Positions 7,002 through 58,165 of a stretch of 64,000 nucleotides of DNA are shown here, in pieces. The notes below the pieces were generated by a model that worked only from the letters and a program-made list of their open reading frames with translations, had not been told where the DNA came from and ran no database searches. The number at the start of each line of letters is the position of its first letter. The stretch's first letter is position 1. The stretch is from Mucispirillum schaedleri (GTDB taxonomy: Bacteria > Chrysiogenota > Deferribacteres > Deferribacterales > Mucispirillaceae). The position numbers were made by a program, and so were the translations under genes. The DNA lies in contig CASEIN010000001.1 in the NCBI GenBank assembly GCA_949287985.1, positions 65,051 through 129,050 on the forward strand, written 5' to 3'.

Positions 7002-7011
7002 GGAGTATATT

Positions 7012-39334: not shown

Positions 39335-39349
39335 TACAAAAAGGATTTT

Positions 39350-40958: not shown

Positions 40959-41357
40959 TTAACTTTTCCAGTCTTCTATTTTTAAATGATTAATTCGTGC
41001 AAATTCACTTTTATTATTTGTGACTAATATTACATTTTCTGTAAGAGCATGTGCTGCAATTAACATATCCATAGCACCAATTGGTTTTCCAATTTTTTCT
41101 AATTCTGCTCTTATCTTTCCATATTCTACTGCCACTTCCTTGCTGTATGGTATAATAGAAAAATATTTAATAAAGTTATTGAGTATTTTTCTATTGCGTT
41201 CATATTGCTTACTTTTTGATACACCATATTCTAGTTCTGATAAAGAAATTGCAGATATGCATATATCTGAAAAATTAATATCCTTTAACCTATCTAAAAC
41301 AGTAGTATCTTCTTTCATAATAAAAATACAAATATTTGTATCAAGCATGTATTTCAT
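40959..41357 (-). CDS. vapC: VapC-type PIN-domain toxin (tRNA(fMet)-specific endonuclease family)
   Basis: 132 residues. The PIN-domain acidic residues are visible: Asp6 in MLDTN, Glu41 in SLSELEYG, Asp97 in GAMDMLIAAHAL, and the polar pair in LVTNNKSEF near 114-118. This matches the VapC subgroup that cuts the anticodon loop of initiator tRNA. The start overlaps the end of the antitoxin gene by one base, as usual in vapBC. It is at the left edge of the IS-bracketed block, where toxin-antitoxin genes often stabilise accessory DNA. Confidence 0.92.
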   Translation of the reverse strand: MKYMLDTNICIFIMKEDTTVLDRLKDINFSDICISAISLSELEYGVSKSKQYERNRKILNNFIKYFSIIPYSKEVAVEYGKIRAELEKIGKPIGAMDMLIAAHALTENVILVTNNKSEFARINHLKIEDWKS

Positions 41358-41611
41358 TATAATTTTTCCCTGATATCAATATTAGGTTGTTCTCTTTGAG
41401 ACATAAAGTCATTTGATACACCACCTTTTATATCTTTTAAAAAATTATCATATACGGCATTTTGATTACCTTTTTTATTTTGAAAAACAGGTTTTAGTAT
41501 TAAATAACTTCCTTTTTTTTGTACTTCTACCATATCAATACCATTTGGAAAACCAAACTCTGATAAAATATCAGATATTTGAGTGTTATTCTTTGATATT
41601 TCAATATTCAT
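41357..41611 (-). CDS. vapB: VapB-type antitoxin
   Basis: 84 residues. The first half resembles an AbrB/MazE-like swapped-hairpin DNA-binding domain (VQKKGSYLILKP), and the acidic/Asn-rich tail would wrap the toxin. ATG 41611 is preferred since GGGAGG lies 5 nt upstream; the ORF could begin at 41629 but without a site. It is directly upstream of vapC and presumably autorepresses the pair. Confidence 0.85.
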   Translation of the reverse strand: MNIEISKNNTQISDILSEFGFPNGIDMVEVQKKGSYLILKPVFQNKKGNQNAVYDNFLKDIKGGVSNDFMSQREQPNIDIREKL

Positions 41612-41694
41612 AATAACCTCCCATATCACATTTATAAATAAACCCTAACAATAATATTATATAATTAACTACAATTATAAGCAAGAATTTTATA

Positions 41695-42427: not shown

Positions 42428-43717
42428 ATGGAAAAAAATATTGATGTATTAGTTATAGGTGCTGGTCCAAGTGGTAGTATTTTAAGTTCGCTTTTACACA
42501 AAAACGGACTTGATGTATTAGTTGTTGATAAAGAAATTTTTCCAAGATTTGTAATTGGAGAATCTTTGCTTCCATTTTGTATGCATGCAATGGAACAGGC
42601 TGATTTGCTTGATGCAGTGATGGATAATGAAGAGAAACTAGGTTTTCAGTATAAAAATGGTGCTGCATTTGCTCGTGGAGCAAATGATAATTCTATAGAA
42701 TATACATATATTGATTTTTTAGATAAAAGCAGTAAAGGTTTTGGAACAACTTTTCAAGTAAGGCGTGGAGTATTTGACAAACTTCTTATTGATACAGCAG
42801 CAAAAAATGGTGTAAATGTTTTATTTGGTGTTAAAGCAGAAAAGTTTGATTTTAATGAAGATGAAAATGGGCGTGTTACAATAGGACTTGATAATGGTGA
42901 TATTATTAAAGCTAAATATGTTGTAGATGGCAGCGGTTATGGTCGCGTACTTCCAAAAGCTCTAAATCTTGACACCCCTTCTGATTTAACTCCAAAAATA
43001 GCATACTTTACTCACATTGAAGATAAAATTTCTTATCCAATGTATGACAGAGATAAAATATTAATAACTACCCACCCAGAACATAAAGAAATATGGTTTT
43101 GGCTGATACCTTTTAGTGACGGCAGATGTTCAATAGGTGTTGTGGGAGAAAAACAATTTATATTCTCAAATGATACTGCCAAATTTTTAAATGAACAGGA
43201 CTTAAAAGCTAATGCTATGGAAATTTTAAAAACACATGTTTATAAAACTCCAATGCTTAAAATGCTTTTAAAAGATGCTGTATGGGATACACCTGCAAAC
43301 TTTATTTATGGATATTCTGCAAATGTAACAAAATTTTATGGTAAACATTTTGTACTGCTTGGTAATGCCAGCGAATTTTTAGACCCAGTATTTTCTTCTG
43401 GTGTAACTATCGCTATGCATGCAGCAACATTATTAGCACCACTTATTACAAGAATAATAAAAGGTGAAAGTGTAGATATGACAAAAGAATATGTAGAACC
43501 ATTAAGTGTAGGTATTAGAGCTTTTAAAACTTATGTTAATGGCTGGTATGATGGCATATTTCAAGATGTTATATATACTAAACGCAAAGACCGCAGCGTT
43601 ACAAGGCATATATCATCTGTATTAGCTGGTTATGCATGGGATACTGAAAATCCGTTTGTAACTAAATCTGATAAGGCATTACATGCTTTATATGAAATAT
43701 GCAAAAATCAAGCATAA
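42428..43717 (+). CDS. Flavin-dependent halogenase/oxidoreductase-like protein of the aryl polyene cluster
   Basis: 429 residues. The FAD Rossmann motif GAGPSG is at 11-16, with FPRFVIGESLLP at 38-49. Lys76 in GFQYKNGAAF sits where the catalytic Lys of flavin halogenases is found, and W223-W225 in WFWLIP match the WxWxIP halogenase motif. It may therefore halogenate (or hydroxylate) the aryl head group, as expected for brominated xanthomonadin-type pigments; flavin monooxygenases of unknown activity are the alternative. It overlaps the next gene by 19 nt, so it is the lead gene of the operon. Confidence 0.7.
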   Translation: MEKNIDVLVIGAGPSGSILSSLLHKNGLDVLVVDKEIFPRFVIGESLLPFCMHAMEQADLLDAVMDNEEKLGFQYKNGAAFARGANDNSIEYTYIDFLDKSSKGFGTTFQVRRGVFDKLLIDTAAKNGVNVLFGVKAEKFDFNEDENGRVTIGLDNGDIIKAKYVVDGSGYGRVLPKALNLDTPSDLTPKIAYFTHIEDKISYPMYDRDKILITTHPEHKEIWFWLIPFSDGRCSIGVVGEKQFIFSNDTAKFLNEQDLKANAMEILKTHVYKTPMLKMLLKDAVWDTPANFIYGYSANVTKFYGKHFVLLGNASEFLDPVFSSGVTIAMHAATLLAPLITRIIKGESVDMTKEYVEPLSVGIRAFKTYVNGWYDGIFQDVIYTKRKDRSVTRHISSVLAGYAWDTENPFVTKSDKALHALYEICKNQA

Positions 43718-44088
43718 TAAAGATTGCTACAAATATATTATTATTTTTAATATTGAATGCTGTGCTACTTTCCTGTGCAGCAGGTATTTCTGTTAATGTT
43801 TGCCCTATGGAACAGGTAAATTATACAATAGAGTATCCAAATGGCAGCATATATCAAATGAGTGCTGTATGTAGTGAAACAATGTGCAGGTTTATATTGT
43901 TTGATGCACTTGGTATGCCTGTTGTAGATAAAGAATACAGCAATAAAAAATTTAAGAATATGAAATTTCTACCTCCAAATAATAAATATGATAATCTATT
44001 TGCATATATAATTAACAGCAGAGGTAGTGAAAAGCAGTTTGTATATAAAATTAATAATACAACTGTTACTGTATATAAAAATAACTAA
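43699..44088 (+). CDS. Small lipoprotein of the aryl polyene cluster (ApeN position)
   Basis: 129 residues. Lipobox LLSC puts the acylated Cys at 26. The rest is a small beta-rich domain (VNYTIEYPNGSIYQMSAVC, CRFILFDALGMPVVDKEY). In known APE clusters a DUF3261-type lipoprotein (ApeN) precedes the ketosynthase gene; this protein is shorter and occupies the same place, so a role in outer-membrane delivery of the pigment is inferred from position, not sequence. It overlaps the flavoenzyme gene. Confidence 0.55.
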   Translation: MQKSSIIKIATNILLFLILNAVLLSCAAGISVNVCPMEQVNYTIEYPNGSIYQMSAVCSETMCRFILFDALGMPVVDKEYSNKKFKNMKFLPPNNKYDNLFAYIINSRGSEKQFVYKINNTTVTVYKNN

Positions 44089-44114
44089 ATAATGGTTAAA
44101 TTAAGTGGAAAAAT

Positions 44115-45299
44115 ATGCAAAATATTTATTTTAGTATTCCAGAAGTGATTTCTGCAGCAGGTTCCGGCAGTATGTTTTTAGATAATATTTTGTCTGGTAA
44201 ATCAGGTATTACTTTTTCAGATAAATATATTAATAATACATCTGTGCCCCTTGGTATTGTAAAAGATTTAAATGTTACTATAAATGATTTACCACAAAAA
44301 CTACAGGTTGAAGAGTTTAATACAAGGGCAGTATTTATGCTTATGCCGTTACTTGTTAATCTAAATGATAAAATTGAATATCTTAAAAAGAAATATGGCA
44401 GCCATAGAATAGGTGTAAGTTTTGGTACAACAAATCCAGGTATGGAAGAAAATTTAGATGCAATGCGTTATTATATAAAAACAGGCGATTTCTCAAAATA
44501 TTCAATACGTAGAAACAGTCTATATAACCCTGCCAGATTTTGTTCATTATTTTATAATATTCATGGCCCTGCATTTACCATATCTACTGCCTGCACATCT
44601 GGTGTAAAATCAATTATTCAGGGATACAGATTAATACAATCAAGTTTATGTGATGCTGTTATATGTGGTGGCAGCGACAGCCTTAATTCACTTACAGTAA
44701 ATGGGTTTAATAACCTTCAAATATTAAGTAACAACTATTCAAATCCATTTTCAAAAAACAGAGATGGTGTTAATCTTGGAGAAGCATCAGTATTATTTCT
44801 TTTAACAAAAGAGCCGGAATATTCTAATATTAGGATTAAGTCTTTCGCATCAAATAATGATGCTTTTCATATTACTAAACAAGACCCAGAATCACCTTAT
44901 GCAGTTAATTTACTTGAAGATTTAAAAAATGGAATGGCTGGAGAAAGTATAGATTATATTAATCTTCATGCAACAGGCACTATTCCAAATGACCAGGTAG
45001 AATCCTTTGCAGTAAAAAATGTTTTTGGCAGTAATATATTATGCAGTGGTATAAAACAGCTTACAGGCCATACATTAGGTGTTGCAGGCAGTCTTGAAGC
45101 AGCCTTATGTGTTATGCTTGTAAATAAGCAGAATACTAATTTACCGCCACATATATATGATGGAGAATATGATGAAAGTCTTGCAAAAATACATCTTGTA
45201 GAAAAAGAAGACAGAAATATATATAAAATAAAAAATGCAGCAAGTATTAATTTTGCTTTTGGCGGTGATAATAGTGCTATAGCTGTTGGGTATGATTAA
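44115..45299 (+). CDS. apeO: Beta-ketoacyl-ACP synthase of aryl polyene synthesis (ApeO-like)
   Basis: Thiolase-fold condensing enzyme, 394 residues, with an intact catalytic triad: Cys160 in STACTSG, His285 in LHATGT and His319 in LTGHTLG. It extends the aryl starter with malonyl units while bound to ACP. In characterised APE systems this enzyme pairs with a chain-length-factor-like partner (ApeC; here at 47766). It lies at the head of the ketosynthase-dehydratase-ketoreductase-ketosynthase run, with TAATG overlap to the dehydratase gene. Confidence 0.85.
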   Translation: MQNIYFSIPEVISAAGSGSMFLDNILSGKSGITFSDKYINNTSVPLGIVKDLNVTINDLPQKLQVEEFNTRAVFMLMPLLVNLNDKIEYLKKKYGSHRIGVSFGTTNPGMEENLDAMRYYIKTGDFSKYSIRRNSLYNPARFCSLFYNIHGPAFTISTACTSGVKSIIQGYRLIQSSLCDAVICGGSDSLNSLTVNGFNNLQILSNNYSNPFSKNRDGVNLGEASVLFLLTKEPEYSNIRIKSFASNNDAFHITKQDPESPYAVNLLEDLKNGMAGESIDYINLHATGTIPNDQVESFAVKNVFGSNILCSGIKQLTGHTLGVAGSLEAALCVMLVNKQNTNLPPHIYDGEYDESLAKIHLVEKEDRNIYKIKNAASINFAFGGDNSAIAVGYD

Positions 45300-45784
45300 T
45301 GAATAGCTTTGAAGATTATAAATATAAAAAATGCAAGCATCTGTTATTTCATGGAAACGATATAGTGTTGATTGATAAAGTAATAGAATGTTCAGAAAAC
45401 TATATTATTGTTAATGCTAATTTAGATAAAGATTCGCCTTTTTTAGATACATATAATGGATTAAAAGTTTTTAGAACATATAAAAGCATAGAAATGATGG
45501 CTCAAAGTCTTGGCTGTTTTCAATATATAAATATGTCTATGCATGGAGAAGGGAAAGCTAAAATTGGTTTTTTACTTGGTGCAAGGAAATTTGAAATTTT
45601 TATTCCACATACGGTATACAATCAGGAATTATTTATAGAAACAAGACTTTCAGTGCAAAATGATGATGGATTTGGAGTATATGATTCCACTATTTATGTT
45701 GGAAGTATAGGTGAAAATAATAAGGCAGCATCTGCATCATTAAGTGTATTAAGCCCAAAAGATGACTTTTTTATGCATATATAA
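45299..45784 (+). CDS. apeP: 3-hydroxyacyl-ACP dehydratase (ApeP-like hotdog protein)
   Basis: 161 residues. LLFHGNDIVLIDKV carries the likely catalytic His17, and YKSIEMMAQSLGCF contains the Glu on the central hotdog helix, matching the ApeP/FabZ-like pattern (LPH..PM.LID.V and E..AQ). It removes water from the beta-hydroxyacyl-ACP to form each polyene double bond. In known systems it works as a complex with a second hotdog protein, ApeI, which here is fused to the ligase at 50333. The ATG overlaps the previous stop. Confidence 0.8.
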   Translation: MNSFEDYKYKKCKHLLFHGNDIVLIDKVIECSENYIIVNANLDKDSPFLDTYNGLKVFRTYKSIEMMAQSLGCFQYINMSMHGEGKAKIGFLLGARKFEIFIPHTVYNQELFIETRLSVQNDDGFGVYDSTIYVGSIGENNKAASASLSVLSPKDDFFMHI

Positions 45785-45804
45785 GATAATAAAGAGGAAA
45801 AATA

Positions 45805-46515
45805 ATGAATATAGAAAAAGAGATATTAGTAACAGGTTCATCACGAGGTATAGGGAAAGCTATAGCTGTTGATTTAAAAAATGCTGGTTATAAGGTTATT
45901 CTTCATGGTAGAACTAAAAGCGACACACTTTTAAAACTAGCAGATGAGCTTTCCAGTGAATATATATTTTTTGATGTTGCAGATATTGATGCAGCAAAAA
46001 AAGCACTTCATAAATATACAGAAAAAGCATTATATGGTATTGTGCTTAATGCTGGTATTTCTAAAGACAATACTTTTGTTGGTCTTGATAAAGATGAGTG
46101 GGAAAGTGTTATAAATACAAACCTGAATAGTTTTTTTAATGTGTTAAATCCAATACTTATGCCTATGTTAAGAAAAAAAGAGGGGCGGATAGTGGTAATG
46201 AGTTCTGTATCTGGTATTATGGGCAACAGAGGTCAGACAAATTATTCTGCCTCAAAAGCAGGTCTGATTGGTGCAGCAAAAGCATTAAGTGTAGAAGTTG
46301 CCAGTAGAAATGTTACTGTAAATGTTGTAGCACCGGGTTTAATTGAAACAGATATGATAGATGAGAATCTTCCACTTGATGAAATAAAAAAAGCAATACC
46401 TGCAAGAAAGTTTGGCAAACCAGAAGATGTTGCTCCACTTGTTACTTTTTTAATGAGCCCTTATGCATCATATATAACTCGTCAGGTAATAGGTGTTAAT
46501 GGAGGTTTTGTGTAA
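45805..46515 (+). CDS. apeQ: 3-ketoacyl-ACP reductase (ApeQ-like, FabG family)
   Basis: Short-chain dehydrogenase of 236 residues. The NADPH motif TGSSRGIG is at 10-17, NAGIS near 81, and the catalytic Ser134, Tyr147 and Lys151 are in place (SSVSG and NYSASK). It ends MSPYASYITRQVIGVNGGFV like FabG. It reduces the beta-keto group after each condensation. GAGG upstream of the ATG; the stop overlaps the next ketosynthase start (TAATG). Confidence 0.88.
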   Translation: MNIEKEILVTGSSRGIGKAIAVDLKNAGYKVILHGRTKSDTLLKLADELSSEYIFFDVADIDAAKKALHKYTEKALYGIVLNAGISKDNTFVGLDKDEWESVINTNLNSFFNVLNPILMPMLRKKEGRIVVMSSVSGIMGNRGQTNYSASKAGLIGAAKALSVEVASRNVTVNVVAPGLIETDMIDENLPLDEIKKAIPARKFGKPEDVAPLVTFLMSPYASYITRQVIGVNGGFV

Positions 46516-47762
46516 TGGGCAGTATTAAAACTCATAGAGTTTTTGTTACAGGATATGGTATCGTTAGTGCATTTGGAAACTCATGGCAGGAATGTAGGGC
46601 AGGGTTTCAAAAAAAAGAAAATAAAGTTATATATATGCCGAAATATACAAAGGTTCATGAATTAAAATCATATTTAGCTTCACCTATTCTTGATTATGAA
46701 CCTTTGCAGGAACTTACAAGAAAAGATAAACGCTCTATGGGGCGTGTTTCATTAATGTCTGTCCATGCGGCAAAACTTGCAATGCAGTCTGCAGGGTTAA
46801 TTTCAGATGACGGCAGTATCTCTGATTCAGTTACAAATGGCAGTCTTGGTGTATCAGCAGGTTCAAGTACAGGAAGCACTGATGCAATAGTATCTATGGC
46901 AAAATTATTTATTACAGAAAGCTCCGACTGTAACGCTAATACATATATAAAAATGATGCCCCATACTATTGCTGCCAATATTGCAATATATTTTCATATT
47001 AAAGGCAGAGTTATTCCAACATCATCAGCATGCACAAGTGCAAGCCATGCAATAGGATATTCCTATGAATCTATTAAATTTGGAAGAATACCTATGATGA
47101 TAGCAGGCGGTGGGGAAGAATTATGTATGAGTGAAGTGTATGTTTTTGACTCACTGTATGCAGCAAGCAGAAAAAACAGCACTCCAAAATTAACACCATC
47201 ACCATTTGATAAAGACAGAGATGGGCTTGTACTTGGTGAAGGTGCATGCTTTTTACTGCTTGAAAGTGAAGAGTCTATGATAAAGCGCAATGCTTCACCT
47301 ATTGCAGAAGTAGTTGGCTATGGTTCAACTTGTGACGGTACACATATTACTAGGCCGCAAAGTCAAACCATGAAAGAAGCTATGGAGTTAAGCCTTGCTG
47401 ATGCAGAAATTTCACCAGATAAAATAGGTTATGTAAATGCTCATGCAACAGCTACAAGTTTTGGTGATATTCAAGAAAGTATTGCCACTAACCAGTTATT
47501 TGGAGAAAATATTTATATATCATCACTTAAAAGTTACTTAGGACATACTCTTGGCGCATGCGGGGCAATGGAAAGCCTTTTTTCTATTATGATGATGAAT
47601 GAAAAAACATTTTATCCAACTATAAATCTTAATGAAGTAGATAAGGAATGTGCAAAATTAAATTACTTAACAGATATTACTGATATATATACTGATTATG
47701 TAATGAATAATAATTTTGCATTTGGTGGTATTAATACATCATTAATTTTTAAAAGAGTATAA
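46515..47762 (+). CDS. apeR: Beta-ketoacyl-ACP synthase (ApeR-like, FabF family)
   Basis: 415-residue condensing enzyme with Cys173 in SSACTSA, His310 in NAHATAT and His344 in YLGHTLG, thus active. In APE systems this second ketosynthase is separate from the ApeO/ApeC pair and is thought to carry out an initiating or specific round of elongation. It has the GSSTGSTDA loop and KDRDGLVLGEGA typical of FabF. Part of the tightly overlapped ape operon. Confidence 0.85.
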   Translation: MGSIKTHRVFVTGYGIVSAFGNSWQECRAGFQKKENKVIYMPKYTKVHELKSYLASPILDYEPLQELTRKDKRSMGRVSLMSVHAAKLAMQSAGLISDDGSISDSVTNGSLGVSAGSSTGSTDAIVSMAKLFITESSDCNANTYIKMMPHTIAANIAIYFHIKGRVIPTSSACTSASHAIGYSYESIKFGRIPMMIAGGGEELCMSEVYVFDSLYAASRKNSTPKLTPSPFDKDRDGLVLGEGACFLLLESEESMIKRNASPIAEVVGYGSTCDGTHITRPQSQTMKEAMELSLADAEISPDKIGYVNAHATATSFGDIQESIATNQLFGENIYISSLKSYLGHTLGACGAMESLFSIMMMNEKTFYPTINLNEVDKECAKLNYLTDITDIYTDYVMNNNFAFGGINTSLIFKRV

Positions 47763-47765
47763 ATT

Positions 47766-48440
47766 ATGAAATTTTCATTTAATATAGAAAATGTAAAAGC
47801 ATTTATTCCAGAAGAATTTAAAGAGAATTTTTTAGGAACACCGCTTGAAGAATACTGCCACGATTTTAAACTTAGTCATATACCAGCTATTGAAAGAAGA
47901 AGATTAAGCAAAGGTACAAAATGTGTGCTTTCTATGCTTGAAAATATTGAGCAGCCTGTAGTATATTCTTCTTATAAAGGTGAAATTAACAGAAGTTTAG
48001 ATTTACTTTTTTCTCTTGCTGAAAATGGGGTAGTTTCTCCAACATCTTTTTCTCTTTCAGTTTTAAATGCTGTACCTGCCGTATCTTCTATTATGTATAA
48101 AAATCATAATGATATTACCGCTGTATCTTCCAGCCCGTCTCTTGAAAATGCATTATTACAGGCATATATTAATTTATGTGATAAAAAGAAAAATCAGCTG
48201 GTTATCAGCTATTATGAAGGTGCTTTTAAAGAACATTTTAAACAAGATAATTTATACTGCTGCGTATCTATGGAATTAAGTTTTGGTAATAATATTACTA
48301 TAGAAAAAGAAAGTTCTGATTGTCAGTATGATTTAGTCAGCAAAATAAGTGAAATAGAGTTTTTAAAAAATTATGAAAATAAAATAAATTATATAATAAC
48401 TAGTGATTATTCAAAATGGCTGTGGTATTTTAATGATTAA
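47766..48440 (+). CDS. apeC: Ketosynthase-like chain-length-factor partner (ApeC-like)
   Basis: 224 residues, about half a thiolase fold. The motif VVSPTSFSLSVLNAVPAVSSI aligns with the ketosynthase nucleophile region but has no Cys (the family of N-terminal KS-like proteins, PF13723), so it should be catalytically silent. In the characterised E. coli APE system ApeC forms a heterodimer with ApeO like a KS/CLF pair that sets chain length. It lies three bases after the ApeR gene and overlaps the acyltransferase gene. Confidence 0.75.
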   Translation: MKFSFNIENVKAFIPEEFKENFLGTPLEEYCHDFKLSHIPAIERRRLSKGTKCVLSMLENIEQPVVYSSYKGEINRSLDLLFSLAENGVVSPTSFSLSVLNAVPAVSSIMYKNHNDITAVSSSPSLENALLQAYINLCDKKKNQLVISYYEGAFKEHFKQDNLYCCVSMELSFGNNITIEKESSDCQYDLVSKISEIEFLKNYENKINYIITSDYSKWLWYFND

Positions 48441-49164
48441 GATTATAAGAGCCTTTATCCCATTTTTTTTGTTTGGTGTAATGTGTATAGCTGGCAATAT
48501 AATTTTTATATTTTTTTTAATAACACAATTATATAGGCTTTCAGTGGTAACATATATATCAAGAGATATTGTAATGCTTGCATGGAAATTTTTTCTATGG
48601 CTGGTAAAACATTTTAAATGGATAAATTATCCAAAAATTAATATAGATATTAAAGATAAAGGCTGTTTAATAATAGCTAATCACCCGTCGCTTTTAGATG
48701 CTGTTTTTTTAATTGCTCATCTAAGGCACAGCAACTGTGTTGTTAAAAAAGAGTTAAGAAATAATATTTTTCTATATCCTGCTGTTAAGTGCAGCCGGTA
48801 TATTATAAATGAATTTAATGAAGAATTTTTAAATAAATGCATTAATGTGTTGCAAAAGAAAGAAAATTTAATTATTTTTCCAGAAGGCACAAGAACTGTA
48901 GATAAAATAAATATGCATAAAGGTGCATCATATATCGCTGTGTATGGTGCTGAAAAAATAATACCATTTTATATTACCATTGAACCAAAATGTTTAGGCA
49001 AGTATGATAAATGGTATAATCTGCCTGAAAATATTAATTATAATATTATACCCCTTAAAGAAATATATTTAAATGATTTTGAACCAGATACCGCTGCATC
49101 TTTAAGGGTAAGGCATCTTCATTCATTTATTAAATCAATATATGAAAATTATAATAAATTATAG
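48433..49164 (+). CDS. apeD: 1-acyl-glycerol-3-phosphate acyltransferase-like enzyme (ApeD-like)
   Basis: 243 residues. An N-terminal membrane helix pair is followed by ANHPSLLD (the HxxxxD catalytic motif) and FPEGTRT (substrate phosphate binding), typical of PlsC-like acyltransferases. It probably transfers the polyene or a fatty acyl group to a lipid anchor at the inner face of the membrane. ATG 48433 overlaps the ApeC-like stop; an upstream ATG at 48403 would read into ApeC and has no ribosome site. Confidence 0.78.
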   Translation: MIKIIRAFIPFFLFGVMCIAGNIIFIFFLITQLYRLSVVTYISRDIVMLAWKFFLWLVKHFKWINYPKINIDIKDKGCLIIANHPSLLDAVFLIAHLRHSNCVVKKELRNNIFLYPAVKCSRYIINEFNEEFLNKCINVLQKKENLIIFPEGTRTVDKINMHKGASYIAVYGAEKIIPFYITIEPKCLGKYDKWYNLPENINYNIIPLKEIYLNDFEPDTAASLRVRHLHSFIKSIYENYNKL

Positions 49165-49173
49165 GAGCATAGT

Positions 49174-49446
49174 ATGGCATCTGAAAAGTTAAAAGAAGAA
49201 TTAAAAGATTTAATTATTACTACACTTAATCTTGAAGATATCAAAGTTAGTGATATTAAAGATGATGAGGCACTTTTTGCTGAAGGCTTGGGGCTTGACA
49301 GCGTTGATGCATTAGAATTATCTCTTGCAATATCTCAAAAATATAATGTTGTAATTGATAAAAAAGTGGATAATGTTAGAGAAATATTTGCAAATGTAGA
49401 AAATTTAGCAAACTATATACAGTCTACATCAAATGGAGAATTATAA
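49174..49446 (+). CDS. apeE: Acyl carrier protein 1 (ApeE-like)
   Basis: 90 residues. The phosphopantetheine attachment Ser43 lies in GLGLDSVDALEL, with acidic helix II as in discrete ACPs. AGGAG before the ATG. One of two adjacent carrier proteins that hold the growing aryl polyene chain; the two differ clearly, so they likely serve different steps (starter loading versus elongation). Confidence 0.88.
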   Translation: MASEKLKEELKDLIITTLNLEDIKVSDIKDDEALFAEGLGLDSVDALELSLAISQKYNVVIDKKVDNVREIFANVENLANYIQSTSNGEL

Positions 49447-49703
49447 TGACCGAAAATGAAATATTTGAATTTTTAAAAAAAGTTTTAACAGATTATTTTG
49501 AAATTGATGAAAGTAAAATCACTATGGAAGCTAATTTAAATGAAGATTTAGATATGGACAGCATTGATGCAATAGATATGATATCGTACATTAAAAAAGA
49601 AACTGGAAAAGAAATAGAGCCAGCACAGTATAAAGAAGTGAAAACTATAAAAGATATTATTGATATTATAATGAAGCAAATGAATAATAATGAAAATAAT
49701 TAA
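49446..49703 (+). CDS. apeF: Acyl carrier protein 2 (ApeF-like)
   Basis: 85 residues, Ser39 in DLDMDSIDAIDM is the expected phosphopantetheine site. The start overlaps the stop of the first ACP by one base, and the end overlaps the next gene by 14 nt. Confidence 0.88.
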   Translation: MTENEIFEFLKKVLTDYFEIDESKITMEANLNEDLDMDSIDAIDMISYIKKETGKEIEPAQYKEVKTIKDIIDIIMKQMNNNENN

Positions 49704-50322
49704 CAGCAGTTTATTTATTTCAGGATTATTATATCCATTTGTAATTTATTTTTTTAACAAATATTTATGGATATTTTTTTTACTTTTTTCGTTATTATGG
49801 TTGATTAAATTTATATTTATATACAGCGGCAGAAACAGTGCAGTTAAAGAAAGTAAAAATGAATTTGTGAAAATATTTCAATCTTATTCGCTTTTTTTGG
49901 GCAGTAAACATATGTCTTTTGTATTTTTCCTGCTGTTTTTTTTTATGTTTATTATAAAATATATGAATATGCAATTTGAAGAAGTGATATATATATATCC
50001 AGTTATAATATATGTAATATTTTTTGCAGTATTTATGTATAAAATAAAGGAAAAACCATTAATACAGTCTTTTGCAGAATTAGAGCATAAAGTAAGAAAT
50101 TTAGCACCGCTTACTAATAAGGAAAAAAGATATACATATATACTGACTTATATATGGTCATTTTTCTTTTTAGCCAGTGCATTATTATGTATATTTTTAT
50201 CTTTATTTGAAAATAAAACATACTGGGTTTTCTATACTGGAGTAGCAGGGTATATGTTAACAGGTTTATTATTTATTTCAGAAAGATTATTAAGAAGCAA
50301 GATTATAAAAATTATGAAATAG
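49690..50322 (+). CDS. apeG: Conserved membrane protein of aryl polyene clusters (ApeG-like, COG4648 type)
   Basis: 210 residues with about six helices, including two N-terminal ones, KYMNMQFEEVIYIYPVIIYVIFF, and a pair near the C-terminus. The middle motif FAELEHKVRNLAPLTNKEKRYTYILTYIWSFFF matches the E-x-x-x-x-x-L-x-P-x-x-x-x-Y-x-R..T..W pattern of this family in APE gene clusters. Its exact role is not known. It overlaps the second ACP. Confidence 0.75.
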   Translation: MKIINSSLFISGLLYPFVIYFFNKYLWIFFLLFSLLWLIKFIFIYSGRNSAVKESKNEFVKIFQSYSLFLGSKHMSFVFFLLFFFMFIIKYMNMQFEEVIYIYPVIIYVIFFAVFMYKIKEKPLIQSFAELEHKVRNLAPLTNKEKRYTYILTYIWSFFFLASALLCIFLSLFENKTYWVFYTGVAGYMLTGLLFISERLLRSKIIKIMK

Positions 50323-50332
50323 AGTGATAATT

Positions 50333-51907
50333 ATGGAACAACTGCATATTTTAAACATATCTAAAAATAATATGGATAAAGTTATTAATGCTTTTGATAA
50401 AAGCAGCGGTAATGATATATTAATAAATATCAGCAATAATCTTTTATTTATAGATGTATTTGCAGCTCTTATTTATATGCAGCATAATCAATCACTTGTT
50501 AATAAAATTACAGCAGCACCTGTTATTACTGATGATAAATCATATATAATTTTAGATGATGAATTTTGTAAAAAAGCAGGTCTTCAGTATTCTGAAAGAG
50601 ATATAGATTCCATTGAATTTTTCAAAAAATACAGCAGTACATATTTTTATTTAAAAACATCAGGTAGCACAGGTGAGCCTGTATTAATAAAAAAATATAT
50701 TCACCAGATGATTAATGAAGCAGAATGTTTGAAAGACTTTTTATGTTTTCAGTCTGAAAGCAAAAGCGTATGTTCTATTGTGCCGCACCACCATATGTAT
50801 GGGCTTACATTCGCAGTATTTTTACCTATTGTTAACAGATTTCCTATTATAGAGCAAAGCCCTGTTCTTGAAAATTTAAGCCAGTTTACTGAAAATATTT
50901 TAGTTACATCACCAGAATTTCTAAAAAAATTAATACTGTATAATAAAAATATTACAAAAAATGCAGTGAAAAATATAGAACTTATTATTACAGCAGGCTC
51001 AGCATTAGATGAAAAAACAAGAAATTCATTAAAAGATATTACTAATGCAAAAGTATTAAACATATATGGCAGTACAGAAACAGGTGTTATTGCCTGTGAT
51101 TTAGGGGAAGGGTTCAGGCTCTTTAAATCAGTAAAAATTTTAAATAATAACGGAGTAAATGAGGTTACATCAAACTGGTCTGATAAATATATATTAAATG
51201 ATGAACTTAAAGTTACTAATGATAGACTTGAAATTTATGGCAGAAGCGATAGAGTGGTAAAAATTGCAGATAAAAGATTTAGTCTTGATATGATAGAAAA
51301 ATATGTCAAACAGTCTGGTTTAATATATGATGCTTACGGATATGTTATTGACAACCGAATTGGAGTTCTAATATCACTTACAGAAAACGGCAGGGCTACT
51401 TTTAGAAATACTGGTAAAAAAGGTATTATAGAAGATATAGAAAAATATACTCATAATATGTTTGGTACAAATATAAGGCATTGTAAAATTGTTTCAAATA
51501 TATACAGAAACAGTAACGGCAAACTTATAAAAAAAGAAAACGATATGCTTATCTCAGAAAAACATCAAATAGAGTTTAAACAGGAAAAAGTAGAAAAAAC
51601 ACAAGATGATATATATGCTTTATTTTCTGCTTCAATAAGTGATGATTTATTTTATCTTCCAGCACATTTTTACAGTTTCCCATTAATACCAGGTTTTATG
51701 GAACTAGACCATATAATTAAATTAGCAGAAAAATTTGGATACGATTATACTAAAATTAATAGAATCACAAACTTAAAATTTTCCAGTTTTATAAGACCTT
51801 ATGATAAAATAACTGTTGAGCTTATAATGAGTGAAAATCTTGTAAAATTTACCATAAATATAGACAGTGTAAAGGCAGCATCTGGGAGTATAAAATATGA
51901 GAAATAA
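50333..51907 (+). CDS. Aryl-acid acyl-ACP ligase fused to a hotdog dehydratase (ApeH-ApeI fusion)
   Basis: 524 residues. The N-terminal part is an AMP-forming ligase: P-loop TSGSTGEP at 109-116 and NIYGSTETG near 245, with a shortened C-terminal subdomain containing GRSDR. It would activate an aromatic acid (4-hydroxybenzoate type in E. coli) and load it on ACP. From about residue 430 to the end is a hotdog domain with His445 in AHFYSFPLIPGFMELD, equal to the HF..P.(I/V)PG motif of FabZ/ApeI. In E. coli these are two genes. ATG 50333 is preferred to the in-frame GTG 50324. Confidence 0.82.
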   Translation: MEQLHILNISKNNMDKVINAFDKSSGNDILINISNNLLFIDVFAALIYMQHNQSLVNKITAAPVITDDKSYIILDDEFCKKAGLQYSERDIDSIEFFKKYSSTYFYLKTSGSTGEPVLIKKYIHQMINEAECLKDFLCFQSESKSVCSIVPHHHMYGLTFAVFLPIVNRFPIIEQSPVLENLSQFTENILVTSPEFLKKLILYNKNITKNAVKNIELIITAGSALDEKTRNSLKDITNAKVLNIYGSTETGVIACDLGEGFRLFKSVKILNNNGVNEVTSNWSDKYILNDELKVTNDRLEIYGRSDRVVKIADKRFSLDMIEKYVKQSGLIYDAYGYVIDNRIGVLISLTENGRATFRNTGKKGIIEDIEKYTHNMFGTNIRHCKIVSNIYRNSNGKLIKKENDMLISEKHQIEFKQEKVEKTQDDIYALFSASISDDLFYLPAHFYSFPLIPGFMELDHIIKLAEKFGYDYTKINRITNLKFSSFIRPYDKITVELIMSENLVKFTINIDSVKAASGSIKYEK

Positions 51908-53576
51908 TCTTTGTTTTTTAATTCCATATTACAACCACCCAGAAAATATAAATAAGTTATTAAATAAACTGCTTACTTATAATCTTCCAGTTATAATAGT
52001 TGATGATGGCTCTAATCCACTACTAACAAGCGTTTTAACAGTCAGTAGCCCTTTAATTACTATAATAAGTTACAGCATAAATCAAGGCAAGGGCAGTGCA
52101 GTTATAACAGGTATGAAAAAAGCATTAGAAATGGGTTTTCACAGCTGTTTTCAAATAGATGCAGATGCTCAGCATGATTTACTTAAAATTAACGAATTTT
52201 TAGAAGTCTATAAGCATGCTCCAGAATCTTTAATATGTGCAAAACCAGTTTATAGTGATGATATACCAAAATCAAGGCTTTATGGTAGAAAAATTACAGC
52301 CTTTTGGGTTTATGTTAATACATTAGGTGCTGTAAAAGAAGACACTATGATAGGTATGCGTATTTATCCTTTAACAAAATTAAATAGTATTTTGAAATGT
52401 GTAAAAGGAAAAAGAATGGATTTTGATACAGATATCTTATTATGCTGCTATAAAAATAATATAAATATAAAATGGGTAGATGTAAATATTACATATAGCG
52501 ATAATAATGTCAGCCATTTTAGAATGGTAAAAGATAATGTTCTTATTTCTCTGATGCATACTAGACATTTTCTTTCTTTACCATTATTATTATTTAAAAA
52601 AAATTACAGGCAGGTTATAAAGTCATTGGAAGAAAAGAAATGGTGGAATAAAAAAGAAAAAGCAGGTATTTTTTTGTTGAAGATAACACTTTATCTTGTT
52701 ACTATTCTGCCTGCTTTCATTTTAAAGTTTGTAATTTTTATTGTTACATTATTTTATTATGCTGTAAATAAAGAAGAAAGAAATAATATTGCCATATATA
52801 GAAAAAATTTAAAAAATTATTTTAAGGACGAAGTAAAAGAAATATTATCTCATACATCAGTTTTTAGTAATTTTTATGCTTTTTCTGAAAGTATCTGTGA
52901 CAAGATTGCAGTATGGAAAGGGAAAATAGAATATAATGATTTAGTATTTGCTAATGAAAAGTACCTGCATAATGAATTAAGTTTTGGGTTTGGTAAAATA
53001 CATAAATCAGGTCAAATATTACTAGTCAGCCATTTTGGTAATATTGAAGTGCTTAGGGCAGTAAGCAGACATATAAAAGAAACAAAAATAGCAATATTAG
53101 TTTATCAAAAAAATAGTCAGGCTTTTGCAAGTATTATTAATGAAATATCTCAAACAGATTTAAGAGCTTACGATGTAGAAGATTTATCAATAGATAAAAT
53201 GCTTGAATTAAGTGAACTTTTAAAAAGCGGCTGTCATATAGGAATAATGGCAGATAGAGTTTCAGTTAATGATAAAAAAAATATAAAAGTTAAATTTTTA
53301 GGACAGGATTGCTACCTGCCTACTGGTGCTTTTATTTTAGCAGGATTATTAAAATGTCCTGTTACTACTATATGGTGCGAAAAAATCAATGGTAAATATA
53401 ATATTGAGCTTGAAAAAATAGCTGATAATATAATTCTTTCCAGAAATAAGGAAGAATCAGTAAGAAAATATGTAGAGCAGTATGTATCAATACTAGAAAA
53501 ACATGTTAAAAATAATCCTTCCCAGTGGTTTAATTTTTATAATTTTTGGCAGGTAACAAATGAAAATAATAAGTAA
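51897..53576 (+). CDS. apeJ: Glycosyltransferase-acyltransferase fusion (ApeJ-like)
   Basis: 559 residues in two parts. Residues 1-245 are a GT2 domain (LIPYYNHPENI, IIVDDGSNP, QIDADAQHD, MRIYPL). After a helix pair come residues 300-559, an LpxL/HtrB-type acyltransferase with HX4E in VSHFGNIE near 378 and ADRVS.......V.FLGQDCYLPTGAF. It may glycosylate and acylate the anchor of the polyene. The start overlaps the ligase gene by 11 nt and the end overlaps the thioesterase gene by 17 nt. Confidence 0.8.
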   Translation: MRNNLCFLIPYYNHPENINKLLNKLLTYNLPVIIVDDGSNPLLTSVLTVSSPLITIISYSINQGKGSAVITGMKKALEMGFHSCFQIDADAQHDLLKINEFLEVYKHAPESLICAKPVYSDDIPKSRLYGRKITAFWVYVNTLGAVKEDTMIGMRIYPLTKLNSILKCVKGKRMDFDTDILLCCYKNNINIKWVDVNITYSDNNVSHFRMVKDNVLISLMHTRHFLSLPLLLFKKNYRQVIKSLEEKKWWNKKEKAGIFLLKITLYLVTILPAFILKFVIFIVTLFYYAVNKEERNNIAIYRKNLKNYFKDEVKEILSHTSVFSNFYAFSESICDKIAVWKGKIEYNDLVFANEKYLHNELSFGFGKIHKSGQILLVSHFGNIEVLRAVSRHIKETKIAILVYQKNSQAFASIINEISQTDLRAYDVEDLSIDKMLELSELLKSGCHIGIMADRVSVNDKKNIKVKFLGQDCYLPTGAFILAGLLKCPVTTIWCEKINGKYNIELEKIADNIILSRNKEESVRKYVEQYVSILEKHVKNNPSQWFNFYNFWQVTNENNK

Positions 53577-53982
53577 TATTACAAACCATAAGATTGAATT
53601 CTATGATGTAGATTCTATGAATGTAATGTGGCATGGAAACTATGTTAAACTGATAGAGGCAGCAAGATGCAGGCTGCTTGATAAAATCGGCTATGATTAT
53701 ATGCAGATGAAAGAAGATGGCTATGTTTATCCTATTGTTAAAATGGATTTTAAATATGTTTCCCCTGCTTTTTTTGGTGATGAACTAAGTATTACATCTA
53801 CAATTACAAATTATGACGGATTATTAAAGATAGCATATGAAATATATAATAATACTACTAATAAATTATGTGCAATAGCTTCTACATCACAGGCATCTGT
53901 TATGATAGATGGGTTTCAAACAATGTTTACATTAAATCGTGAATTTTTAGCTAAAATTGAGGTGTATCTTGAAAATAATTAG
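53560..53982 (+). CDS. apeK: 4HBT-family thioesterase (ApeK-like)
   Basis: 140-residue hotdog thioesterase. YDVDSMNVMWHGNYVKLIEAAR contains the catalytic Asp18 in the D-x-x-x-(V/I)-x-(F/W)-x-x-Y family motif. It would release or edit acyl-ACP intermediates. Overlaps neighbours on both sides. Confidence 0.82.
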   Translation: MKIISNITNHKIEFYDVDSMNVMWHGNYVKLIEAARCRLLDKIGYDYMQMKEDGYVYPIVKMDFKYVSPAFFGDELSITSTITNYDGLLKIAYEIYNNTTNKLCAIASTSQASVMIDGFQTMFTLNREFLAKIEVYLENN

Positions 53983-54514
53983 CTGTTTATTTATATTTTT
54001 TATTTCAGTTAGTAATATTTTTGCTTTTTCTATAAATGATTTAGAGCAGATAATGGTTAATGATAATATTAACGGTAATTTTAATCAGGAAAAAATTATA
54101 GCAGGCTTTCCAAAACCTGTTATTACAGGCGGTCAATTTAGCATAAAAAACAAAGAGTTACTGTGGATAACAGAAAAACCGCGTAAAAGCTCTATTAAGA
54201 TTAATGCAGACGGTATATTTAGTCTATCAAGTAATGGCACATGGTCTAAAATCCAGGGGCAGTATGATAAAAGTATGTTTTTAGATATAGTAAATATGAA
54301 TTTTAAAAAGGTTAATTCTATTTTTGATATTGACTTATCAGGCAGTGCAAAAAACTGGATAATGAATTTAAAACCTAAAACAAATATTGCAGGTAAAATA
54401 TTTAAAAATATTATCATTAAAGGTGGAGTTTTTGTTTCAAGTATTGAAATCATCGAAGAAAATGGTGATAAAACTATAATGAAGTTTTTTAATGTTTCCA
54501 GCAGGGAGAAATAA
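53969..54514 (+). CDS. apeL: LolA-like periplasmic carrier (ApeL-like)
   Basis: 181 residues. Signal peptide (MKIISCLFIFFISVSNIFA), then a LolA-type fold with GNFNQEKII (GxFxQ motif) and KKELLWITEKP-like strand order (KNKELLWITEKPRKSS). It presumably shuttles the lipid-linked polyene across the periplasm. TTG start at 53969, with GAGG six nt upstream; it overlaps the thioesterase gene by 14 nt. No Cys for acylation, so it is soluble. Confidence 0.78.
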   Translation: MKIISCLFIFFISVSNIFAFSINDLEQIMVNDNINGNFNQEKIIAGFPKPVITGGQFSIKNKELLWITEKPRKSSIKINADGIFSLSSNGTWSKIQGQYDKSMFLDIVNMNFKKVNSIFDIDLSGSAKNWIMNLKPKTNIAGKIFKNIIIKGGVFVSSIEIIEENGDKTIMKFFNVSSREK

Positions 54515-54516
54515 AG

Positions 54517-56748
54517 ATTAAAAAAATAATAATATTTTTAAGTTTTTTTACAATTTGGACAGTATCGTTATTTTATGTAGTAATTAATACTAAAGTAATA
54601 GATACAAACATATATAGTCTTATTAACATAGAAAATGAAAGTGTATTATTAAGTATGAATAAAAATCTTTCAAACAGTGTGTTATTTTTATTTGATAATA
54701 TAGGTAATATAGATGCAGTTTCACAGCTGAATGATAAATATAAAATATTTAAATCAGTAAATAAAGGTGTAGCTTATAATTATGATTCTTTTATAAATGA
54801 TATTGACTTATTAAAAACTGCTTCATTAAAGGGAAGTTATTTAGAAGATATAAAAGATAATCCTTATAATTTTTTTAATAATCATATAGATGCACTTTTA
54901 AATTCATTTATTATAAAAATTCTTCCTTTAGAGAAAGATTTTTTTATGCTTTCAAGTCATTCTGCACTGCTTGAAAATGGTGGAAATTTTAAATATGATA
55001 TAAATAATGATGTGCTTTATACTGAACATGATAATAAAACATACTATATGGTGCAGGCTGTTTTAAATGATAAATATAATCCGTCACAGCTTTTATATTT
55101 AGTTAAGGATATAAAGCACAGCTTAGGTAGCAGCGTTATAATAAGCGGCGGTGCATTGTTTAATGCTGACGGACACAGGCAGGGAATAAATGAAAGTATT
55201 TATATGACTATACTTTCAATATTATTAAGTGCATTTATACTTCTCACCGCTTTTCGTGAAAAAAGTATTTTATATTTAATGACAACTATTATTTTCAGCC
55301 TGACATTAGGGCTTGCAGGCTGTATTTTTATATTTAATACTATCCACATATTAAGCATTATAGTAAGTGCCAGTTTAATTGGTTTAGTTGTTGATTTTTC
55401 TCTGCACTGGCTTGCAAATAACCAAAACAAAGTAATAAAATCATCATCAATTAAGCTGGTAGTAAAATATCTTGTAATAAATTTTGTAATAACAGCAGTC
55501 GGTTATATGCTATTTATGTTTTCCTTTATGCTGCTTTTGCAGCAGATTGCTGTTATATCAATCATTACTCTTTTTGCATCTCTTTTATATACAATTTTTT
55601 TCCTGCCTTATATGCTAAATGGTGCCTGTTATACTACAAACAGTATTTTTAATAAAATATTTAATAAATATCTTAAAAGTATTGATTTCTTAATGTCTTA
55701 CAGGCCAGCTGTATTATTAATTATATCTGCAGTAATTATTACCAGCAGCATAAAACTTATAACTATTTCAAATTTTTCAGATAATATCAAAAACTATTCT
55801 TCAATAAATCAAGATTTTTTAAATGATACTATTATTGCAGGGGATATTACTGGAATGAAAAATCCATCTAATTATCTTGTTATAGATAATTATACTATTG
55901 ATAAGGAAAATAATTTAATTACATCACTTCTTGATAATCATTTAATCAATAACTATAAAGGATTAGGACAGGTATTTTTAAGCATAAATCAGCAGGAAGT
56001 TTTAAAAGAAATTTTTTATAAAGCAAAAGATAATAGCAGTATAATAAATATGTATACCGAAGCTGGCTTTGATAATAATTTTATTGAAAAGGAATTTAAT
56101 AAGGCTTCATCATTTCAGATTATGGATATTAATGAAATACTTAATATTAATGCAGCACAGCCCTTTAGATATTTTTATCAAAATAATAATGGAATAGTTT
56201 TTTTTGAAAGCAGTAAATCATATAATGATTTAATTGATAATAATACTTTTAAAAATATATTATTTTCGTATGATGCAGAGTATTACAATCTTGTAGAAAT
56301 GATTAACATGTATTTCAGCCAAATCAAAAAACATGCTGTTATTTTAAAAATAATAGGAATTTTAGCAGGATTTTTGATATTATCAGTAGTATTTTCAATA
56401 AAAAAATCATTTATGATAAGTTTTGCAGTATTATTATCACTTCTTTTTGCTATATCTATATTTTCAATTTTTTCAATAGATATAAATATTTTTGCAGTAT
56501 TTGGTTTTATACTTGCAGGTGCTGTTGGTATAGATTATGCTGTTTTAATGCTTAATGAAAACATAAATATTTCAGACAGGTATTTTGGAATATTTACATC
56601 TGCCTTAACAAGTATGGTTTCCTTTATAATATTAACAACAAGCGCTACTTATGCAGTTTTTACATTTGGTTTAAGTGTTGCTTTATCACTATTTATATTT
56701 TTATACATACTGCCATTATTTGCTTTTTACAATAAAAAGCGGGGATAA
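54517..56748 (+). CDS. apeM: MMPL/RND-type exporter of the aryl polyene (ApeM-like), probable ATT start
   Basis: 743 residues if translated from ATT 54517. That start gives an N-terminal (M)KKIIIFLSFFTIWTVSLFYV membrane helix needed by the family, with AGGGAGA seven nt upstream and a 2-nt gap from the previous stop. The first ATG (54655) would delete this helix and has no ribosome site. The protein has the RND layout: one helix, a periplasmic loop of about 170 residues, five helices with LIGLVVDFSLHWL, a second helix and loop, then five helices with GAVGIDYAVLMLNE. It likely moves the pigment out of the inner membrane. Confidence 0.82.
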   Translation: MKKIIIFLSFFTIWTVSLFYVVINTKVIDTNIYSLINIENESVLLSMNKNLSNSVLFLFDNIGNIDAVSQLNDKYKIFKSVNKGVAYNYDSFINDIDLLKTASLKGSYLEDIKDNPYNFFNNHIDALLNSFIIKILPLEKDFFMLSSHSALLENGGNFKYDINNDVLYTEHDNKTYYMVQAVLNDKYNPSQLLYLVKDIKHSLGSSVIISGGALFNADGHRQGINESIYMTILSILLSAFILLTAFREKSILYLMTTIIFSLTLGLAGCIFIFNTIHILSIIVSASLIGLVVDFSLHWLANNQNKVIKSSSIKLVVKYLVINFVITAVGYMLFMFSFMLLLQQIAVISIITLFASLLYTIFFLPYMLNGACYTTNSIFNKIFNKYLKSIDFLMSYRPAVLLIISAVIITSSIKLITISNFSDNIKNYSSINQDFLNDTIIAGDITGMKNPSNYLVIDNYTIDKENNLITSLLDNHLINNYKGLGQVFLSINQQEVLKEIFYKAKDNSSIINMYTEAGFDNNFIEKEFNKASSFQIMDINEILNINAAQPFRYFYQNNNGIVFFESSKSYNDLIDNNTFKNILFSYDAEYYNLVEMINMYFSQIKKHAVILKIIGILAGFLILSVVFSIKKSFMISFAVLLSLLFAISIFSIFSIDINIFAVFGFILAGAVGIDYAVLMLNENINISDRYFGIFTSALTSMVSFIILTTSATYAVFTFGLSVALSLFIFLYILPLFAFYNKKRG

Positions 56749-56758: not shown

Positions 56759-57550
56759 TTAGAAATAGTTTACTGCTATATTTTTTTCAAGATTTGGTAT
56801 CCATCTGCCAAGATAATTTCTATGGATAACTTTTTTCTCTTTATCAGCTTTTAAATTTTCGCTGTCAACATATACATAGTTATAACCATTTTTACTATAT
56901 ACGATTTTTGTTGTTACCCACCAGTTACTGCGAGCATATCTAATATTAATTTCCCCATTTTTCTTTTCTAAAATCTGCCAGCCTAAATCAGTTGCTGCTT
57001 TTACTACTGCATTTTGGAATTTAGTTGTATCAATTGGTGTAATAACAGATGTTCCTTTAACATTTGTGAAGTCTGTAGCAATTTTAGTTTGAGAAATAAC
57101 TGTAGGTCTTGGTTTTGCATTTGGATTCGTATAAAACGCATAAATATGTTTTTCTAAATTTGGTATCCATCTGTTAGTATAGTTGCGGTGTATTTTATTT
57201 TTTGCGGGATTTGCATCTAAATTATAGCTGTCCACATATTCATACCAGTATTCGTCAGCTGTGTAACATACTTTAACGATAACCCACCATGCTCTAGGTT
57301 TTTCTAATTTTAAAGTTATGATTCCTGGCTCATTTTTTTCTATGATCCAGCCTAAATTTGTAGCTGCTTTAATGATGCTGGCCTGCATTAATTTTGTATC
57401 AATAGGGGATATAACACTTCTACCTTGTATTATTTCAAAATTTCCCTCTTTTGCAGGTGTTTTTTTAACGGGTGCAGCATATAAAAATGATGTGAACATT
57501 GTTAAAATCATAGTAAACAATGCAATTTTAAATAATTTTATTTTTATCAT
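56759..57550 (-). CDS. Secreted protein with two tandem copies of one domain (function unknown)
   Basis: 263 residues. Signal peptide cleaved near FLYA-APVKK, then two homologous units of about 110 residues. Both have SVI(S/T)PIDT, (V/I)KAAT.LGW.I.EK..G.I.(L/I), WWV..K(V/I).Y....Y.Y.YVDS.NL.A...K..IHRNY..RWIPNLEK. Tyr/Trp-rich and basic. No family is recognised. It converges on the exporter gene and lies inside the IS-bracketed block, but sits on the opposite strand, so it is not part of the ape operon. ATG 57550 has GGAGG upstream. Confidence 0.75.
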   Translation of the reverse strand: MIKIKLFKIALFTMILTMFTSFLYAAPVKKTPAKEGNFEIIQGRSVISPIDTKLMQASIIKAATNLGWIIEKNEPGIITLKLEKPRAWWVIVKVCYTADEYWYEYVDSYNLDANPAKNKIHRNYTNRWIPNLEKHIYAFYTNPNAKPRPTVISQTKIATDFTNVKGTSVITPIDTTKFQNAVVKAATDLGWQILEKKNGEINIRYARSNWWVTTKIVYSKNGYNYVYVDSENLKADKEKKVIHRNYLGRWIPNLEKNIAVNYF

Positions 57551-57621
57551 AATGACCTCCACGATTTTTTTATCATATTATATATAATAGCACAAGCAAA
57601 ATATATATAATTTTAATAATA

Positions 57622-58083
57622 GGTAAAGAGTTTGGTTAATTTGAGCTTGATGAAATCTATTTTGGAGCAAAACGGATTAGAGGTAAACGAGGCAGGGGAG
57701 CAGTAGATAAGACCCCAGTATTTGGGTTATTAAAGCGATAAGGTCAAGTATATGTTACAATAGTTCCTAACTGTTCCAAAGAAGAATTAATGCCTATAAT
57801 ACAAGGTAAAATACTAGAAGGTAGCACAATACATACTGATAGCTGGAAGGCATATGATGGATTAATTTTAAATGGTTACACGCATCACAGAGTATATCAT
57901 CATGCAAATGAATTTAGTAGTGGTAAATCTCATGTCAATGGTATAGAAAGTTTTTGGAGTTTTGCAAAGAGAAGAATGTCTAAATTTAATGGTCTAACTG
58001 ATGAAAAATTTATCTTGCATTTAAAAGAAAGTGAGGTTAGATTTAATTATAGAAAAGATAACTTTCTGCTCTTGACTGAATAA
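57622..58083 (+). pseudogene. IS1595-family (ISXO2-like) transposase, 5'-truncated with two in-frame stops
   Basis: One frame reads FELDEIYFGAKR, RGRGAVDKTPVFGLLKR, GQVYVTIVPNCSKEELMPII, HTDSWKAYDGL, HHRVYHHANEF, and HVNGIESFWSFAKRRMSKFNG, the DDE/N core of ISXO2-like transposases (about 154 codons of roughly 300). TAA codons at 57637 and 57739 interrupt it, and the zinc-ribbon N-terminus is missing. It marks the right edge of the accessory block. Confidence 0.85.
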
Positions 58084-58165
58084 CTTTATTCTGGTATGCA
58101 TAGAGCAGGATATGTAAAAATATAATCATAGAAAACTGAATTTACAGACTTTTTTTCACAGGCTC
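58084..58165 (+). mobile_element. Right terminus of the IS1595-family remnant
   Basis: From the transposase stop to CACAGGCTC at 58165. With the preceding 18 bases it is the inverse of 40727-40826 (about 98 of 100 bases). The fifth XpaC-like gene continues immediately after it. Confidence 0.8.

Follow-up and report, generated by a model that had tools for sequence, protein, structure and literature searches.

In a 64,000-nucleotide stretch of the Mucispirillum schaedleri genome (contig CASEIN010000001.1; the whole stretch is hereafter the window), we describe an aryl polyene (APE) gene cluster which is very likely functional and which a Mucispirillum lineage would have acquired from a Campylobacter-like donor. 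Aryl polyenes are yellow antioxidant membrane pigments, and Mucispirillum is a gut-mucus inhabitant tied to inflammation. Sixteen open reading frames (ORFs) on the plus strand fill positions 42428-56748, with spacings from -38 to +26 nt, and are read as one operon in the order halogenase-like gene, N (tentatively), O, P, Q, R, C, D, E, F, G, H and I fused, J, K, L and M. The letters were assigned against the ape genes of E. coli CFT073 and the published gene table (PMC8253772), and 17 of the 18 E. coli functions (A and C to R) found a counterpart, one to one apart from the ApeB methyltransferase.

Gene content of the cluster

The ape assignment of the synthase genes is supported by matches to APE-specific hidden Markov models (HMMs) and to solved structures (Table 1). 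Separate ApeO and ApeC, a FabB-like ApeR, ApeQ, two dehydratases, two acyl carrier proteins (ACPs) and ApeH, all of them expected of an APE synthase, are present. ApeR is far closer to the solved ApeR (7F27) and to an ApeR-like protein (4EWG) than to any FabF, and its Tyr144 and Phe211 correspond to the aryl-stacking Tyr135 and Phe202 of AbApeR. The best PDB matches of ApeC are chain B of 6QSP and chain A of 7F28, all four entries being APE proteins (PMC8358021). In turn, ApeO carries its Cys-His-His motifs at 158-162, 285 and 318, and the ApeQ orthologue of an uncultured second Mucispirillum species (L002), which is the closest named relative (95% on ApeR), is 46% identical to E. coli ApeQ. 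ApeP scores 26.6 bits against the Pfam ApeP-like family, narrowly missing the cut-off of 27, and its sole structural match, 6QSR, is an ApeP protein. Residues 416-507 of the ApeH-I fusion, a fusion that also occurs in Campylobacter, match a small protein, 3ESI, which is an ApeI protein, as well as E. coli ApeI itself (28%, E 3e-9), while 4-coumarate-CoA-ligase-type enzymes are the nearest NCBIfam models to its ligase part.

The genes expected for attachment and export (D, J, K, L and M) were found as well, and N weakly so. ApeJ, here a single protein, corresponds to two separate ORFs in L002 and in several Campylobacter, and ApeL scores 22.6 bits against the LolA model, slightly under the cut-off. 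The start of ApeM is very probably the ATT at 54517, 2 nt past lolA, and not the ATG at 54655, since the frame is open, the residues are kept in L002 and the Campylobacter homologues begin there with an ATG; the Campylobacter exporter in turn matches its E. coli counterpart. The small lipoprotein at the ApeN position matches neither a Pfam nor an NCBIfam model, and its alignment with E. coli ApeN by hhalign is weak (Prob 14%). Its homologues occupy the same position in Campylobacter, and its AlphaFold model (pLDDT 84.7) has LolA/LolB as best Foldseek matches (E about 0.01), so that position, lipoprotein signal and a weak fold match tentatively point to ApeN. Beyond the operon and convergent with it, a 17th gene encodes a tandem-duplicated ApeA homologue: E. 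coli ApeA matches the two halves of its product with 55.5 bits (E 1e-14) and 52.4 bits, the best of 100 shuffles reaching 23, and a homologue stands at the same place in L002 and L068. The structure model of this protein was of low confidence and Foldseek on that model was uninformative.

The first gene encodes a flavin-dependent halogenase-like oxidase of 429 residues. Its nearest PDB entry is 3NIX (304 bits), named only as a flavoprotein/dehydrogenase, followed by the halogenases PltA and ChlB4 (about 112-116 bits), and the motifs expected of a halogenase are present, i.e., a GxGxxG for binding flavin adenine dinucleotide, WxWxIP (W223, W225, I227, P228) and Lys76. The latter two are invariant in 34 APE-linked homologues, and Lys76 would be the catalytic lysine, judging from alignment columns common with PltA and ChlB4. 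Solved relatives of this enzyme act on aromatic substrates. The presence of such a gene is not new, because halogenase genes are known to accompany the xanthomonadin synthase genes of Xanthomonas (PMC3691225).

All 16 frames are open and free of stop codons. Compared with L002, at a synonymous divergence (dS) of about 0.4-0.6, the ratio of nonsynonymous to synonymous substitution rates (dN/dS) lies between 0.06 and 0.34 for every gene, with the lowest values in ApeR (0.060) and the halogenase-like gene (0.062), which indicates a maintained function of the cluster.

A sequence-only reading of this DNA had already placed the genes correctly, closely packed on one strand, and had suspected a Deferribacterota host, as Mucispirillum is. 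It had also proposed that HMM searches might return the ketosynthases and the ligase to ordinary families; these searches, together with the solved structures, point to APE and not to fatty-acid enzymes. Its count of 15 genes was too low, and its claim that every APE function is present holds for the E. coli set, except that ApeB is absent and that ApeA had been overlooked. The order, which it called a rearrangement of A-R, does differ from that of E. coli, but it is a circular permutation common to Campylobacter rather than an ad hoc one.

Table 1. Features of the APE cluster and of the block that carries it (positions in the window)
Feature	Positions	Strand	Evidence
Left inverted end of block	40727-40838	+	112 nt, complementary to 58054-58165
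Flavin-dependent halogenase-like oxidase, 429 aa	42428-43717	+	Pfam Trp_halogenase 70.9 bits
Small lipoprotein at ApeN position, LolB-like (tentative)	43699-44088	+	Position, lipoprotein signal, weak LolA/LolB fold match
Ketosynthase ApeO	44115-45299	+	Best PDB match 6QSP chain A (ApeO), E 1e-62
Dehydratase ApeP	45299-45784	+	Sole PDB match 6QSR chain B, E 1e-7
Ketoreductase ApeQ	45805-46515	+	FabG family E 1e-95; YSASK motif
Second ketosynthase ApeR	46515-47762	+	NF006587 (PRK09116) 567.8 bits, curated cut-off 470
Chain-length factor ApeC, N-terminal ketosynthase domain only	47766-48440	+	PF13723 103 bits, cut-off 25
Lysophospholipid acyltransferase ApeD	48403-49164	+	PF01553 E 2e-12; HPSLLD motif; matches E. 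coli ApeD
Acyl carrier protein ApeE	49174-49446	+	NF006617 83.6 bits, cut-off 70; DSV site Ser43
Acyl carrier protein ApeF	49446-49703	+	NF003757 96.3 bits, cut-off 65; DSI site Ser39
Membrane protein ApeG	49690-50322	+	31% to E. coli ApeG (tblastn); no Pfam match
Fused aryl-ACP ligase ApeH and dehydratase ApeI	50324-51907	+	AMP-binding, 4-coumarate-CoA-ligase-like over 105-352
Glycosyltransferase and acyltransferase fusion ApeJ	51897-53576	+	Glycos_transf_2 and Lip_A_acyltrans domains
Thioesterase ApeK	53560-53982	+	4HBT_2 53.9 bits; 39% to E. coli ApeK
LolA-like carrier ApeL	53957-54514	+	NCBIfam flexirubin LolA2 E 7e-10, under cut-off
RND/MMPL-type exporter ApeM	54517-56748	+	33% to Campylobacter ApeM from residue 1
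Tandem-duplicated two-domain ApeA homologue	56759-57562	-	Convergent with operon
Remnant IS1595-family (ISXO2-like) transposase	57790-58083	+	PF12762 E 1.5e-14, positions 69-153 of 153 only
Right inverted end of block	58054-58165	-	Complementary to 40727-40838

Relationship to known clusters

The order in Campylobacter, N-O-P-Q-R-(extra small genes)-C-D-E-F-G-HI-J-K-L-M, is that of E. coli cut between M and N and rejoined. The clusters of C. portucalensis (L004), C. showae (L005) and C. majalis (L007) share with Mucispirillum this order, the ApeH-I fusion and an ApeR that is 62-65% identical. In C. portucalensis a halogenase-like gene (55%) stands upstream of N, as in Mucispirillum; it is the only one of L003-L007 to have it, L006, which begins inside O, being not judgeable. 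In the ketosynthase (ApeR) tree, Mucispirillum falls inside the Campylobacter clade (support 100/100 for the joint clade, 96/93 and 90/83 inside it), with C. portucalensis as its sister (90/83). The chain-length factor (CLF) family occurs in 42 of 120 Campylobacteraceae genomes, in two of ten Mucispirillum genomes and in five of 51 genomes of the phylum, and the single-contig Mucispirillum genome G041 has no member of it. Transfer from the Campylobacterota is the best reading of these data, and an interphylum origin of the cluster appears well supported.

There are also differences. Unlike Mucispirillum, Campylobacter has one or two extra genes for secreted proteins of about 140 residues between R and C, and two of its loci (L004, L007) have a phosphopantetheinyl transferase (PPTase) gene beside the cluster, while the convergent two-domain ApeA sets Mucispirillum apart from the Campylobacter clusters. 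The secreted protein of about 140 residues, missing in Mucispirillum, is conserved between apeR and apeC in most Campylobacter loci (L003 4951-5373, L004 12171-12587, L005 5349-5768, L006 2639-3058, L007 11659-12081). The idea that it might be a chorismate lyase was dropped, since the protein is secreted, matches no Pfam family and shows no convincing similarity to E. coli ApeA.

Compared with E. coli CFT073 (PMC8253772), where the genes run from A to R, Mucispirillum has N-R followed by C-M and then an inverted A; H and I are joined in one gene, ApeB is absent, and there is an additional halogenase-like gene. The latter is found likewise with the Xanthomonas synthase genes in the Xanthomonas/Lysobacter xanthomonadin clusters (PMC3691225). 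As for flexirubin, the NCBIfam LolA2_flexi model is the best one for ApeL and FlxB scores on the ketoreductase, both under curated cut-offs, and no resorcinol genes (DarA/B) were found among the gene matches of the Mucispirillum cluster.

Predicted product and the question of the starter

What the product is, how it is attached, what the halogenase-like gene does and that the pigment acts as an antioxidant are predictions from gene content. The ApeH part of ApeH-I would load an aromatic acid onto one ACP, the chain would be elongated with malonyl units by ApeR and the ApeO-ApeC pair, and ApeQ and the two dehydratases (ApeP and the ApeI domain) would convert each unit to a double bond. ApeK would then free the chain, ApeD and ApeJ would join it to a lipid or sugar-lipid, and ApeM, ApeL and the small lipoprotein would carry the product to the outer membrane, where it would quench oxidants. 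The halogenase-like enzyme would probably modify the aryl ring, whose methylation is not expected because ApeB is missing.

Several observations weigh against a functional cluster of Campylobacter origin. The first is the aromatic starter. It had been argued from the sequence that the cluster holds neither a methyltransferase nor an aromatic ammonia lyase, and that the starter must come from outside it. Both points stand, yet the gap runs deeper, since none of the starter enzymes searched for was found anywhere in the genome (97% complete): neither UbiC (PF04345; E. coli control positive), nor a HAL/PAL/TAL-type ammonia lyase (PF00221), nor an XanB2-type chorismatase (PF21168; control positive in a Lysobacterales genome), nor a chorismate-binding synthase (PF00425, i.e., TrpE, PabB or isochorismate synthase; 14 of 14 control genomes positive). 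The absence of PF00425 suggests tryptophan and folate auxotrophy. Furthermore, a single gene with a PPTase domain was found in the genome, while L004 and L007 have one beside the cluster. As regards the origin, monophyly of Campylobacter excluding Mucispirillum was only weakly rejected (P value of the approximately unbiased test, p-AU, 0.037), so that nesting rather than sisterhood is uncertain, and the direction of transfer would follow from the phylogeny together with the patchiness in Mucispirillum.

In E. coli the starter is 4-hydroxybenzoate from UbiC (PMC8253772), whereas xanthomonadin producers have XanB2, which makes 3-hydroxybenzoate, the starter formed in Lysobacter by an XanB2 homologue (PMC3691225). 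Starter supply would not be a defining part of the synthase, since it lies outside the cluster in E. coli too and a Lysobacter mutant was given the acid from outside (PMC3691225). As no searched starter-forming family occurs in the genome, the acid probably comes from the gut by scavenging, or else from a route outside these families. Two proteins of the MqnA/MqnD (futalosine) type are encoded in the genome. MqnA makes a 3-substituted benzoate. Tentatively, and with a likelihood somewhat short of even, it may be proposed that Mucispirillum and its Campylobacter donors prime the polyene with an aromatic acid that does not stem from the UbiC, XanB2 or lyase routes but is either scavenged from the host and its microbiota or diverted from the futalosine menaquinone pathway, and that the halogenase-like enzyme then modifies the ring.

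The same absences, together with that of UbiC in five Campylobacter genomes carrying the cluster, would also fit an APE-derived type II synthase that takes a non-aromatic or different ring-acid starter and makes a polyene lipid other than the canonical 4-hydroxybenzoate-type APE. We consider this unlikely, given that ApeR keeps its stacking residues, that the ligase is nearest to 4-coumarate-CoA-ligase-type models, and that the halogenase-like enzyme, with its solved relatives acting on aromatic compounds, ranks second in constraint within the cluster.

Maintenance and ancestry

A decaying remnant, from which pigment is no longer made, would be in line with the lack of ApeB and of the 140-residue Campylobacter genes, with the failure to find a starter enzyme or dedicated PPTase in the genome and with the truncation of the adjacent transposase. 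Nevertheless, all 16 frames remain open and dN/dS is well below 1 between two species that carry the cluster at different loci, which makes decay improbable.

Vertical inheritance in the Deferribacterota with loss in most lineages could appeal to an APE cluster in another genome of the phylum, from the same taxonomic order (L069). We reject it as highly improbable: forcing this cluster together with that of Mucispirillum costs 88 log-likelihood units (p-AU 2e-64), its gene order is different and includes ApeB, and CLF is absent from 46 of the 51 phylum genomes. The L069 cluster (3337-12051), which comes from a genome of another family of that order and is unrelated, is arranged in divergent transcription units and adjoins an enolase gene.

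That Campylobacter DNA was binned by error with Mucispirillum, as the Campylobacter kinship and the flanking repeats might suggest, has a negligible probability and is dismissed, since the cluster lies within a long contig and is flanked there by sequence sharing 92-97% identity with other Mucispirillum genomes, its proteins are about 30-65% identical to those of Campylobacter, and the second species has it at another locus.

A probably mobile block and its empty site

The cluster is carried by a 17.4-kb block bracketed by 112-nt inverted repeats, 96% complementary. In another Mucispirillum genome (G043) the two paralogous genes for membrane proteins on either side of the block (39350-40684 and 58216-59298 in the window) are direct neighbours, without the cluster, both junctions with the G043 sequence falling at the block ends, with about 180 bp of G043 sequence lost; a further genome (G044), 97% identical on the left flank, lacks the cluster too. 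Because the junctions fall at the block ends, the block appears to have moved as a unit in the lineage of the window. In the second species the cluster stands beside type I restriction genes, without the 112-nt ends.

A 1155-bp cassette in G043, which holds two unrelated small genes, has the same ends, and as many as 28 copies of the end sequence occur in one genome, frequently where a contig stops. More generally, an IS1595-associated family of cassettes with inverted ends of about 110 bp (GAGCCTGTGAAAAAAA...) and unrelated cargo is spread through Mucispirillum genomes (for example L139 1501-2655), and a short, 61-bp version is found at the empty site (L117 13535-13595). Inside the block, upstream of the operon, a PIN-domain (VapC-like) gene and its small upstream partner lie on the minus strand (40959-41629). 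The flanking genes belong to a locally repeated membrane-protein family (35150-40684 and 58216-59298), with several tandem copies here and in L118; the one member tested (39350-40684) had no Pfam or NCBIfam match. Further away, two large proteins encoded next to each other (9495-15416) carry bacterial Ig-like (Big_2) domains and could be surface adhesins.

Biological significance

In the literature searched, no description of a Mucispirillum APE cluster was found, the only related report being that Mucispirillum correlates with arylpolyene genes in the pig gut (PMC9964075). The missing starter enzymes pose a concrete question for Mucispirillum and Campylobacter alike, UbiC having been found in neither. 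In E. coli, APE pigments give protection against oxidative stress and favour biofilm formation (PMC8253772). M. schaedleri is already reported to have gained genes extensively from Epsilonproteobacteria, among them those of a type VI secretion system (PMC5285517). If the APE cluster came from Campylobacter-like neighbours, it would be one more trait against oxidative stress obtained by horizontal transfer, and one that only some species of the genus have.

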